Shown: positions 13,409-48,617 of the stretch, in pieces
Layout: every line of letters starts with the position of its first letter
Position numbering within the stretch: position 1 is the first letter of the stretch
Assembly (NCBI GenBank): GCA_027493955.1
Contig: JAOSJT010000001.1
Span: forward strand, 2,095,131 to 2,159,130
From: Bacteroidia bacterium
Lineage (GTDB): Bacteria; Bacteroidota; Ignavibacteria; SZUA-365
Length of the DNA stretch: 64,000 nt
Direction of reading: 5' to 3'
Program-made: the position numbers and the translations under genes
Notes under the pieces: generated by a model
Databases searched by the model: none
What the model was told of the DNA's origin: nothing
The model's input: the letters and a program-made list of their open reading frames with translations, nothing else

Positions 13409-13645
13409 GGTGAAAAGGAAAAAAGGTCAAAAAGTTGGGTTCACTCTCTCTCCTTTTTACCTTTTCACCTTTTCACCTTTTCACCCTTTCACCTTTTCAC
13501 CTTTTCACCCTTTCACCCTTTCACCTTTTCACCCTTTCACCCTTTCACCTTTTCACCTTTTCACCTTTTCACCCTTTCACCTTTTCACCTTTTCACCCTT
13601 TCACCTTTTCACCTTTTCACCCTTTCACCTTTTCACCTTTTCACG
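13409..13645. repeat. Fold-back element 1 with expanded 8-bp CCTTTTCA satellite
   Basis: GGTGAAAAGGAAAAAAGG (13409-13426) pairs with CCTTTTTACCTTTTCACC (13452-13469) with one mismatch and a 25-nt loop. The pyrimidine arm is then expanded into more than twenty tandem copies of CCTTTTCA/CCCTTTCA to about 13645. The ORF reading SPFHLFTF repeats across it is an effect of the repeat, not a protein I can support. Confidence 0.9.
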
Positions 13646-22306: not shown

Positions 22307-23280
22307 GGCGTTCTCCGGATTGTTGCCTCTACAAACATACACAGCCGGATTATACGGACAAGGGGGCGGCGTGGTTCCGGTGGATTCAGCGGAAGGTCCC
22401 GTCTACCCGGATGAACTCGAGCGAGCACGCATACCTCAATGAACGACTCCGCCTCGGACTCGCGGTCCATGTGCGGAATACATCGCTCCTGATTTCGCCA
22501 TCACCGAGCACCCTCTTTGTGCACCAAATGTGGGAGGTTCATGAATCGCCCACTTTCCAACGAATGTGGGAGGTTCATGAATCGCCCACTTTTGCAACGA
22601 ATGTGGGAGGTTCATGAATCGCCCACTTTTGCAACGAATGTGGGAGGTTCATGAATCGCCCACTTTTGCAACGAATGTGGGAGGTTCATGAATCGCCCAC
22701 TTTTGTGTCGAATGTGGGAGGTTCATGAATCGCCCACTTTTGCAACGAATGTGGGAGGTTCATGAATCGCCCACTTTTGCAACGAATGTGGGAGGTTCAT
22801 GAATCGCCCACTTTTGTACCCAATGTGGGAGGTTCATGAATCGCCCACTTTTGTACCCAATGTGGGAGGTTCATGAATCGCCCACTTTTGTACCCAATGT
22901 GGGAGGTTCATGAATCGCCCACTTTTGCGTCGAATGTGGGAGGTTCATGAATCGCCCACTTTTGCGTCGAATGTGGGAGGTTCATGGAACGCCAATGTTG
23001 AAACTCAGCGAGGGGGATTAACGCAAAAACGCAACATCCCGAGTAGCCACCGTGCGATACATTCGGCTTCAGCAGATTGAGCATCACTCGGTGACGTGTC
23101 GAAGGACGTCTACGCTCAGGAGGCGCAAGGACGCAGAGAAATGATGCGATGCCTGGAATCCTGCTGTGTGCGCTGACTTCCGGTCTCAGACCATCATGCG
23201 AAAAAAAACCGCTCCGTTTCGGAAACGCGATCCGTGTCCGGAATGAATCGCTCCCGTACCGTTGGCTGTCGTCACGGTAG
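22307..23280. other. Non-coding region containing the 37-bp array
   Basis: Apart from the tandem array (22530-22997), I see only leader sequence of the gene ending at 21635. There is also a short stretch (about 23010-23140) containing low-complexity ACGCAAAAACGC and GGCGCAAGGACGC words. No gene is supported; ORFs crossing the array are repeat-generated. Confidence 0.6.
22530..22997 (+). repeat. 13-copy tandem array of a 37-bp palindrome-T-tail unit
   Basis: Units start at 22530, 22566, 22603, 22640, 22677, 22714, 22751, 22788, 22825, 22862, 22899, 22936 and 22973. Each has GTGGG, a middle centred on the perfect palindrome TTCATGAA, and CCCAC. This is a 24-nt inverted repeat with one A/G mismatch and one G/T wobble. 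TTTTG and a variable linker follow. Linkers come in a few variants (TTTTGCAACGAAT, TTTTGTGTCGAAT, TTTTGTACCCAAT, TTTTGCGTCGAAT) arranged mostly in runs, which indicates growth by unit duplication. The last unit is degenerate. Hairpin plus T-run resembles an intrinsic terminator on the + strand. Confidence 0.97.
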
Positions 23281-30283: not shown

Positions 30284-33200
30284 TTACTTGACGATCGTGA
30301 GCGTTCGAGTGACAACACCCGCCGCGGTTTCGAGACGGTACACGTACATGCCCGCGGGCACGGCGTCGCCGTTCGCATCGCGGCCATTCCAGGAAACGAG
30401 CTTCTCGCCCGCCAACTGCGTCGAAGAGACGAGCGTGCGGACATGTCGGCCCAGGAGATCGAAAATGGCAAGCCGTACTTCGCCGTCGTGAGACAGCGTG
30501 TATGGGATCCACGATTCGGTCGCCACCTGGAAGGGATTCGGGTAATTGATTCCCAACGCGTCTTCGCCCGCAAGCGGACGCACCGAGATACGCATCAGCA
30601 CTTCACCGCTGCCGTCAATGTTGACGGTGAGCCGCTCACCGGCGGAACCGGTCAGGCGACCCAGTGAGGTACCTTCTTCCGTCAGCACGTCCACGGTCAC
30701 ACGCGGCATGTCGGCAGGAATGCCGATAACCACGCTGCCGTTGGCACGGATGCGGACGGAGTTGTCACCCGGGAACAGATACTGCGTCTGCTCCGCGGTG
30801 CGCACATCGAAGACCTGCGCAGGTGGAACGGCAGGCAGTGCAAGGTTATCACGTTCATCGGTCCGCAACGTCGTGCCGCTCACGTACAGCGGACGGTTTC
30901 CTTCGCCATCCACACTGAGATTGAGCATGCCGGCGATATCGAGTTTGTCCACCGTCTTCGAGTAGGCAGTGACGCCACCGCCGGTGACGGCCGAGCCCTG
31001 CATGGTGAGTTTGGTGTTCGGATCGACACGCACCCAATACCCCTTACCAGGCTCGATATTGGTCGGAATGACGTATCCCGAAGCCGGATTCCATCCGAAG
31101 ATGGCCTTCAATCCACCTGCGGGAGCGGACTGAATGCTTGCGACGGTGAGACCCTTGCTGGGCGCTCCGGCCATATTCCAGCCGAAGCCGCTGGGCTCGC
31201 CGATGCCGTTGAGGTCATCCAGCTCCAGTGTGAGTTGCTCCAGTCCGTAGACAATGCCGTCGAGGCCATTGCTCTTGACCCAATAGCCCTTGCCGAACTC
31301 CATGTTCAGCGCTACGTCATACACACCCGTCGTGGTATTGAAATGATACATGCGGAGTGTGGGATCATTGAACATGGTACCGACATTGGCAGCCGTGCTA
31401 TTGAGCGGCAGCGATACCATCTGCCAGTCGCCGGGGATTTTCCAGGCGAAGCGGACCGGATCGCCGGTGCCGGGCGGGATGGGAACGGGGATACGTACGC
31501 GTACCGTGTCTTTGTCCTCGTCGGGATCTTCATCGTTATCGTTGACGATCTCGATGTCGCGGTCACGACCGGGCTTGACCGGGTCGGCGCAGATGTTGAC
31601 GATCAGCAGCGAGTCGAGCTGCGTAAACGTGGTGCCTTGCATGGGTTTGACAGAGCCATCACCCATCTTTTCACCGAAACGCAGCTTGTAGGGGTTGTAG
31701 TATGGTAACAATTCGCCCGTACTGCGGCTGCGCAATTCGAGCGCCAGCCTGATGCACGGCCAGTCGCGCGTGTCAACACCTTTAGTAGTGATGATCACCT
31801 CGTTTTCCTTCGTGGGCTGCGGACAGGACGATTCCTTCACCTCGATGGTAAAGATGTATGTCCCCTCGTCGGCAAACGTGTAGCTCGACTGCGTACGCAT
31901 GTCAATGCTGCCGGGCATACCCTGAATACGCAGCGTGAAGCTGGCATTGGGAGATACCGGCGGTGCCGGCCAGGTCATCTCCACCGGCTGGGTAGGACCG
32001 GTCTGCACACGGCCCTGGAAGGTGTGCGAGGGCTTGACGGCGCGGTGGTCCGTCACCGAACCCTGCGAACCGACAATGTTGATGAAACGAATATCGAACG
32101 CCGTGGGCGGCGGGACGGGCGGCAGATCCACCTGACCGGCTTCCAGCCCATCGCCGGCACCGTTTTGCATCGCATAATCGAGGGTCACCTGCGTGCTGCG
32201 CGAATTCACGAAGGCCAGCGTGTGACGCCAGGCAGTCATGGGTTCGGGGACGCAAGGTTTCTCGCGATAGTGGGCGATGAGTTTTTTACTCTTCCACATG
32301 ACCACGTTGAGCGGATTCGTGGTGGCGGTGGTATCGCCACCCCAGGCAACGAAGAGGAAACCGTCCGGCGCTTTGGCTTCGGCGACGAGGGTTCCGCCGA
32401 TGGGCGCACTCTGCCGGTGGTCGAGGGGCTCGCCGGGGCCTTCGGGATGAATGACCACGAGCTCTGCGGTGCGCTCGTCAATCGGTTCGATGATGGGGTA
32501 TACGTGGTATTCGCCCGGCTGTGTGTTTGGTCCGATATTCATCGGCGTGGGATTGCCGGGAAGATTTCCGAACGACCCTCCAAATCCAAGGAAGTTGAAT
32601 CCTGGAGGCGCCACGTAACGCATGGCGAACTGCGTGGGGGGATTTCTGTCCACGCCGGAGCGGAACAGGTTGAACTTCGGATGCGGGGTAAGTACAATCT
32701 CGCCCGGGTACGGATGCACGAACTTCACCTTCACGCAGTTGAAGCACGGCATGACGATAGAGGGCTCGTTCACATCCCGTTCGACGCTGAAATCATATTC
32801 ACCGAAGGCGAAATGTCCGCCGGTCCTGTCCACAAGATCATAACTGATCGTCTGGCTTATCTTGGGTTCGACCTTGATAAGGTACTCGCCGTCGGTGTTC
32901 AGTGTGAGCGTCCAGGTATTTCCGGATTTGACGGAGTTGATGTGTGTCGCCGATCCTGCGCGCTGCGCGCGGAAATTGGGCTCGAAATCCGATCCGCTAC
33001 GGACACGCAGTTTGAGACGCACTACCTCGCCGAAGAGTCCGCCGGAGAGATTGATGGCGGTGAGACGGTAATAATCGCTGATGGGGATGAACCAGGAGAA
33101 TTCACCCGCAATGCCCGTGACCGGAATGGCTCCCCGCACGCTGTACGGCGTCATACCGGGTCCGGACGAGGTAAGCACCTTGGGGCTGCTGATAGTGTTG

Positions 33201-43019: not shown

Positions 43020-43707
43020 CCTGATTGCGATTTGATTATTCAGCCCTTTCATGCGTCATGTGCAATTGTATTGAGTACGGCTGTCCGCGCTCGTCATGCA
43101 TAGTGCGAAGCGTTCGCCTGAACGCGGGCATGTGAGGATAACACAAATCGGGCCGGGAAAATTCACACGGCTTGTTTTCACCATTCGGTTTTACTTTTCC
43201 TGCGCGCTTCGGCCGGGACATCGTATGAGCGTGGCACGGATACCGACGGGAGCCAGTGCAAGCGGTACAAGCGGGAAGGGGCGATGCAAGAAGTATGATT
43301 GACAATCCGGGCATACGCAGGACTGAAGCCCTTGGGATCAGAGAGTTTCTGGAATCCATCGCTCAAGGAATAACCGAAGACGCCTCGTGCAGCATCGCGG
43401 TGCAGAGAGGTGTTCGCATCTGCGGATACCGTCCATATCCGAGTCCGTACCGAGCGCCCCATCACACCCGTACTGAAGAAAGTGGGCGTTTCATGAATCG
43501 CCCAATTTTCGCCTGCTTGTGTTCTGTTCGTTCCCTTTGACAGCAACGCTTCCACGTCAGCTCCGTTTTTAACACGAAGCTCATATTCCACGTCAGTTTT
43601 TTCACTATCTTTAGGGATTATGGAATTTTCCGTATTCCATAAAGCGCATCACAGGAGAATATCGAAGGCAACATATCCCATTTAGTCATTAGACGCGGAG
43701 CAATTTC
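43020..43707. other. Intergenic region upstream of ppdK
   Basis: These 688 bp are without a supportable gene; an antisense-like ORF crossing 43,482 is partly made of the palindromic unit. The stretch contains one copy of the 37-bp-array palindrome (43482-43505). AT-rich sequence with TATCTTTAG near 43606-43614 lies about 95 bp before the ppdK start and may be part of its promoter. Confidence 0.6.
43482..43505 (+). repeat. Solitary copy of the palindrome found in the 22.5-kb array
   Basis: GTGGGCGTTTCATGAATCG followed by CCCAA and TTTT matches the array unit at all but a few positions and has the same orientation. Here the position that is an A/G mismatch in the array is a C/G pair. It lies about 200 bp upstream of ppdK. 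Confidence 0.9.
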
Positions 43708-46527
<2,820 letters not shown>

Positions 46528-46597: not shown

Positions 46598-46717
46598 ACG
46601 ATTGACGATTGTTTTGGGTAAAGGGTGAAGAGTAAAGGGTAAAGAGGTGGGGATTAGTCGTTCTCCGCTGTCTCATCCGTCTTCACCTCTTTACTCTTTA
46701 CTCTTTACTCTTTACCC
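46598..46717. repeat. Fold-back element 2 (GTAAAGA heptamer inverted repeat)
   Basis: The 13-mer ACGATTGACGATT (46598-46610) precedes a 34-nt purine-rich arm (46616-46649, GGGTAAAGGG...AAAGAGGTG). It pairs with a 34-nt pyrimidine arm (46684-46717, CACCTCTTTACTC...TTTACCC) with about three mismatches and a 34-nt loop. Arms are built from 7-bp repeats. The element lies between convergent ppdK and lipocalin genes. Confidence 0.88.
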
Positions 46718-47286: not shown

Positions 47287-47475
47287 CGTGAAAAGGGGGG
47301 AGATCGTGAAAAGGGAAGAAGGTGAAAAGGTGAAAAGGTAAGAGGATCGTGAAAAGGTGAAAAGGCAAGAGGATCGTGAAAAGGTGAAAAGGTAGGAGTG
47401 CTTATCGAAGAGCGTCCTACCTTTTTACCTTTTTTCCTTTTAACCTTTTTTACGATCCCGTTTTTTCACGATCCC
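47287..47475. repeat. Fold-back element 3 (GGATCGTGAAAAGG repeats)
   Basis: The left half carries repeats of GTGAAAAGG, including two GGATCGTGAAAAGGTGAAAAGG blocks (written in parts: GGATCGTG then AAAAGG twice) around 47344-47394. The right half (47416-47475) is pyrimidine-rich with CCTACCTTTTTACC and CACGATCCCC, so the halves can fold back on each other. The gap between the lipocalin and Fe-S protein genes is otherwise empty. Confidence 0.8.
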
Positions 47476-48402: not shown

Positions 48403-48617
48403 GTGTTGCTCCAGTGTTTCGAGATGTTCGATCAACCTTCTGCAAAGTATCATGAACAGCACAATCGATGCCTTGATCCAGGTCAAGCCGCCGGGGATGA
48501 TGCGTATCTTCCTGCGTATCAGATAGGGGTCAAAATTCGCATTTCGTGCAGGGCTTGCTTGCGAAGCGGTCTAATCAAACCTGGCAGCGAATTCTGGATC
48601 CCCCTCCCCCCATCATG

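Follow-up and report, generated by a model that had tools for sequence, protein, structure and literature searches.

The DNA analysed here, referred to as the window, is a 64,000-nucleotide stretch of a Bacteroidia bacterium genome (GenBank assembly GCA_027493955.1, contig JAOSJT010000001.1, positions 2,095,131 to 2,159,130 of the forward strand), and the element under study is a tandem array of short palindromes at 22530–22996. Thirteen palindromes resembling double-foot repetitive extragenic palindromes (REPs) lie head to tail on the + strand, twelve of them perfect and the last degenerate, with unit starts at 22530, 22566, 22603 and onwards to 22973, giving one 36-bp step and then eleven 37-bp steps, as an earlier sequence-only reading of the window had described. 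A single palindrome (22530–22553, + strand) consists of a GTGG foot, an imperfect stem, a TTCATGAA core and a CCAC foot; the identical 24-nt sequence GTGGGAGGTTCATGAATCGCCCAC was present in 12 of 13 units, and the thirteenth (22973–22996, + strand) was GTGGGAGGTTCATGGAACGCCAAT. The unit is completed by a 13-nt linker, typically TTTTGCnnCGAAT, and the linker variants (GCAAC, GTGTC, GTACCC and GCGTC) were arranged in blocks, matching the four grouped variants reported before. The same reading had each inverted repeat running into TTTT, which held for 11 of the 12 perfect palindromes and failed for the first, followed by TTTCC. Searching with the GTGGGNNNTTCATGAANNNCCCAC pattern, allowing up to 3 mismatches, gave 14 matches in the window, whereas shuffled sequences averaged 0.05. 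One dispersed copy, GTGGGCGTTTCATGAATCGCCCAA, is located at 43482–43505 (+ strand), ~200 bp upstream of a pyruvate phosphate dikinase gene (43708–46527; Pfam PPDK_N and PEP-utilizers). This copy had been called better paired, which is only partly the case: its inner pair 6/19 is restored (C-G), and its outermost pair is lost.

The palindrome in the window array folds into a hairpin at −10.6 kcal/mol, imperfect at positions 6/19 and 8/17, which are mismatched or wobble, with pairing carried by the outer 5 bp, pair 7/18 and the TTCATGAA core. The array was without a match in Rfam, a search with the palindrome string found nothing in the papers covered, and the sequence-only reading had known of no named element with this form. 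Such an element has in fact been defined: the double-foot REPs of TnpA_REP (REP-associated tyrosine transposase, RAYT) subclass 2.4 have a GT[AG]G 5′ end and a C[TC]AC 3′ end (PMC6006769), and the GTGG...CCAC of the units matches this definition. The palindrome also has the other properties expected of a REP, being 24 nt long (within 20–40 nt), present in many copies (148 matches in the genome) and located between genes. Its identity as a REP is well supported. The E. coli REP carries a conserved, functional mismatch bulge (PMC8266576), and the recurrent stem mismatches at 6/19 and 8/17 may be similar in kind; the sequence differs.

The source genome is a single contig of 5,237,942 bp, in which the palindrome pattern (up to 3 mismatches) produced 148 matches, compared with 1 for the reversed pattern; some of the 148 were units of a related 45-bp type. 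Array counts were based on pattern searches combined with covariance-model searches, the latter adding, among the matches listed, only the single copies at 506084 and 3424515. Nine head-to-tail arrays of at least 3 units were found, all with a 37-bp period: at 783081–783969 (25 units), 1239112 (7 units, reverse), 1768795 (locus L033, 3 units), 2117660 (the window array), 3210192 (8 units), 3211604 (17 units), 3966958 (10 units), 4095447 (11 units) and 4537625 (11 units). In total, ~119 palindrome units were counted in 37-bp array loci, singles included. Further 37-bp-spaced units occur in a higher-order repeat at 1217860–1218741, and there are a few singles. The arrays are located between genes, every unit within an array points one way, and the 13-nt linkers are near-identical within arrays and have a consensus common to all of them. 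The search thus returned eight arrays and singles in addition to the window copies, which supports the earlier proposal that an interspersed element was amplified at this site through duplication of adjacent units. Paired palindrome columns were less variable than linker columns in all 7 arrays tested (0 versus 0.161 in the window array; 0.041 versus 0.171 in the 783 kb array), a pattern that would fit selection on the palindrome or the mode by which units are copied.

Several of these loci carry additional repeats. At 1217860–1218764 (L031:5860-6800), a companion sequence, GGATACGTACGCCGATCAACACGGATTGGAGCGGATTTACACGG, adjoins the 37-mers and makes up with them a higher-order repeat of ~154 or 191 bp; related companion sequences flank units near 30471 and 3212196. 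The 25-unit array (L029:6000-7060, 783000–784050) lies between two copies of one terminator-like hairpin, AAAGCGCCCCGCAATACACGGGGCGCTTTGC.

Two of the 37-bp arrays flank an open reading frame (ORF) at 3210621–3211283, encoding 221–244 amino acids depending on the start codon. A search of the genome with this protein returned paralogues at 22–31% identity. It also returned two RAYTs, at 887848 and 1004597, both of which hit the NCBIfam REP-associated tyrosine transposase model with scores under the cut-off. Alignment with intact RAYTs showed that the HUH motif and the catalytic tyrosine are absent from the ORF and from every aligned paralogue, thirteen further copies lacking them, the HUH site reading SEVE, TSIE, RCVE or SAHI instead of NHVH/DHVH, and the tyrosine site (YIxxNP helix) reading YAEL, HAEL, CAEL, CARL or RDLM, so that the paralogues are predicted to be catalytically dead. 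The ORF and its paralogues formed one monophyletic clade (support 99/96), beside which an intact RAYT of the same family (L208) branches under midpoint rooting. An AlphaFold model of the clade comprised a confident N-terminal domain (residues 11–170, block pLDDT 75–93) and a low-confidence C-terminal extension. The best structural match of this domain by Z (VIA) was 4er8, a RAYT bound to a REP hairpin (Z 11.2, 123 residues, root-mean-square deviation 2.6), followed by IS200/IS605 TnpAs (IS608/ISDra2; Z 8–11), and Thg1 proteins matched at Z 7–8, a level common by chance. Foldseek matches to the domain reached E-values down to 1.4e-6. As modelled, the clade therefore has a Y1 transposase fold. 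The C-terminal extension is present on most of the ~15 paralogues, and of 294 genomes of the class, this one alone yielded the full-length family bearing it, matches elsewhere covering the RAYT domain only.

All 14 further paralogue loci examined have CATG-centred, TTCATGAA-type palindromes 3′ of the gene, and in 13 of them the first palindrome begins 198–222 nt after the stop codon, the exception (L201) being truncated; the L188 distance is ~222 nt, and the L188 palindromes fell under the threshold of the spacing test. Comparable palindromes numbered 10 in 178 kb of control sequence. The palindrome type differs by protein clade: clade A cassettes, whose paralogues include the one at 3283225–3284031, carry GGGCGATaCATGAATCGCCC at a 45-bp period in 2–7 copies, together with the related L191/L192 type; clade B cassettes carry TTTCGATTCATGAATCGAAA in 1–4 copies, at a 48-bp period in L199; and the 37-bp clade carries GTGGGAGcTTCATGgAaCGCCCAC on both sides of the gene. 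Cassettes are 91–98.6% alike over 1.1–1.4 kb, the L191/L192 pair being 98.6% identical, and their flanks are unrelated, so the cassettes were either dispersed as units or homogenised by gene conversion. The ratio of nonsynonymous to synonymous substitution rates (dN/dS) was 0.11–0.30 in all pairs except the near-identical L191/L192 (0.82, seven differences), and 0.11–0.19 in recent copies at dS 0.09–0.18, which points to selection on the RAYT-like protein; a similar pattern would, however, arise if only source copies were selected. The cassette 3′ untranslated regions share a small hairpin ~50 nt past the stop codon (alignment A4, columns 52–79), which is conserved across clades with compensatory changes at four pairs.

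Some intact RAYTs outside this genome are associated with the same core. The closest intact homologue, in another genus of the same family (G005; C122), is flanked by GTAGGGCGGATTCATGAATCCGCCCTAC, with three copies 5′ of the gene and two decayed copies 3′, and in four class-level relatives (L210, L212, L215 and L217) the palindrome lies inside or beside the RAYT gene. In L210, L212 and L217 the TTCATGAA palindrome is within the gene, between HuH and Tyr, as in subclass 2.4, for which in-frame REP insertions at this position have been reported (PMC6006769). The window palindrome thus shares with subclass 2.4 REPs a short GT[AG]G/C[TC]AC palindrome linked to a RAYT, located inside the RAYT gene in intact relatives of the class, and differs in forming head-to-tail runs of as many as 25 units with a constant 37-bp period, and in being associated with RAYT-like genes without HUH and Tyr. 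Tandem reiteration has been described for several GTAG REP families (PMC3733652); like those, and like BIMEs (bacterial interspersed mosaic elements) and REPINs, the present REPs are clustered, but here each array has a single orientation and one exact period, and the alternating orientation of BIMEs and REPINs was not found. Within the source genome, no intact RAYT lies directly beside the 37-bp palindrome, the nearest being ~1.1 kb away.

In a canonical REPtron, as in E. coli and Stenotrophomonas, REPs lie on both sides of a single RAYT. The present loci resemble it in placing a RAYT-like gene beside its own cognate palindromes, and differ in comprising ~15 paralogues in dispersed gene-plus-array cassettes that are predicted to be catalytically dead. 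Other transposase genes of the genome have palindromes of their own. The sole PF01797 match (4215650) has palindromes of other types: this Y1 transposase gene (L075:1489-2880), whose Y motif YISNQKEHH is like that of TnpA_Y1 subclass 1.2 (PMC6006769), is followed by more than 10 tandem units of the palindromes CCCCACACTTACGTATGGGG and GAAGTGTCGCCCTGCGG, forming a second gene-plus-array locus from a different family. Two intact RAYTs (L030:3386-3413 and L200:3682-3709) have their own double-foot REPs, GTAGAGACAAGGCATGCCTTGTCTCTAC in the gene and GTAGAGACGCCCGGCCGGGCGTCTCTAC just 3′, and a related palindrome occurs in the window near 48617. Elsewhere in the window, 13452–13644 holds 24 copies of an 8-bp repeat, CCTTTTCA/CCCTTTCA, and more 7–8-bp repeats were noted at 46687–46715 and 47306–47450.

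Among 60 relatives searched for the palindrome, none had it except for one weak match, and no 37-bp array turned up when 84,980 species genomes, from which the records of this and near genomes were possibly excluded, were scanned for palindrome pairs at close spacing. Tandem palindrome pairs in other genomes were mostly GTAGGGGC..TTCATGAA..GCCCC dimers with other periods. In the cyanobacterium Tychonema sp. BBK16 (L109:2040-2152), GGGCAATTCATGAATTGCCCCTACTGAATTTCGGA recurs with a 35-bp period up to a stretch of N, possibly as a parallel tandem REP array. No viral relative of the RAYT-like protein was found, and a plasmid origin was rejected, with neither the array nor the protein matched in PLSDB.

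Taken together, the window array is best described as a double-foot REP of the 37-bp type amplified in tandem, an orphan array whose units are probably binding sites for a catalytically dead RAYT-like protein. The earlier suggestion of phased protein-binding sites is plausible, with a RAYT-like protein as the likely binder. More broadly, we consider it likely that this is a tandem double-foot REP array of the TTCATGAA-core RAYT clade, in which non-catalytic RAYTs persist in multiple copies as putative hairpin binders. In this genome the RAYTs of this clade have lost HUH and Tyr and persist as a multi-copy family, in which every copy retains TTCATGAA-type palindromes whose arms are specific to its clade. 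In the proposed mechanism, the degenerate proteins may have kept the ability to bind the hairpins, either as RNA or as single-stranded DNA in folded form, and the arrays would be clusters of such binding sites, growing via unequal recombination or slippage. Candidate roles for the binding are repression of active RAYTs in trans, titration and chromosome structure. A more ambitious version is put forward tentatively, with rather less confidence: the dead RAYT family would now be a dispersed, selected, sequence-specific hairpin-binding system of ~15 gene-plus-array loci plus orphan arrays, with palindrome arms changing together with the protein clade, perhaps holding active RAYTs in check in a dominant-negative manner or forming a network of binding arrays across the chromosome, and spreading though predicted to be unable to cut.

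A number of results weigh against this interpretation. A covariation test found no compensatory base changes for hairpin pairing within the 37-bp family, and the window array has no adjacent RAYT gene, the nearest paralogue being ~31 kb off and having a 45-bp-type array. The ORF between the two 37-bp arrays had no Pfam or NCBIfam match and sits on a long branch in the tree (1.57), and its kinship to RAYTs is based on alignment to the paralogues. Not all copies are intact, L196 having an in-frame TGA near its start in addition to the truncation of L201. In 12 other genomes picked for TTCATGAA dimers, the RAYT loci were without such a palindrome, and the REP link consequently holds for this RAYT clade and not for RAYTs generally.

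The loss of catalytic residues, the damage to L196 and L201, the species-specificity of the arrays as far as tested and the lack of a family gene adjoining the window array would all fit a neutral satellite, in which the REPs are relics of a once active RAYT, arrays lengthen and shorten by slippage, nothing binds them at present and the dead RAYT genes decay as passengers. This is considered fairly unlikely given the low dN/dS of the recent copies, the stop-to-palindrome distance of 198–222 nt kept across ~30% protein identity, and the lower variability of paired columns in every array tested. REPs elsewhere bind host proteins (PMC6006769), and with a palindromic core as conserved as TTCATGAA the units could instead be sites for an unrelated host factor, such as a regulator or a nucleoid protein, with the position of the RAYT-like gene between arrays a coincidence; an improbable account, since the palindrome type tracks the RAYT-like protein clade and the same core occurs on either side of the intact homologue from the other genus.

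The sequence-only reading had also raised the prospect of serial intrinsic terminators, with the thirteen hairpin-plus-T units forming a transcription barrier on the + strand. A hairpin of the stability given above does fold with TTTT after it, and five of the nine arrays lie between convergent genes, the rest being between same-direction genes and the higher-order repeat at 1218 kb between divergent genes. No unit of the window array was called by an intrinsic-terminator scan (which needs 5 T in 8), and both flanking genes are on the − strand, opposed to the T-run; on that strand the hairpin is followed by ATTCG. Across the arrays, T-run orientation was independent of gene direction, the array at 1768795 being likewise oriented against its neighbours, and in two arrays ATTTG replaces TTTT, leaving a terminator function highly improbable. 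A CRISPR-like or guide-RNA array, suggested by the regular 37-bp period and the partly palindromic repeat, can practically be dismissed, the 13-nt linkers being near-identical and common within and between arrays, not unique spacers. A coding repeat was rejected as well, since a 37-bp period is not divisible by 3 and the core contains TGA, closing the reading frames.

What is new here is the surrounding system more than the array itself: a RAYT-like family that is present in multiple copies, predicted to be catalytically dead and accompanied by cognate arrays. REPs rank with the most common bacterial repeats, and their purpose is still open. RAYTs without catalysis, apparently under selection and with palindromes at a fixed distance, would be a case in which nature separates binding from cutting, and they invite the question by what means cassettes spread when no active transposase is evident. 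The family also offers a multi-copy case for the joint change of REP specificity and RAYT sequence, and it makes testable the long-standing question whether RAYT proteins work for the cell by binding REPs.
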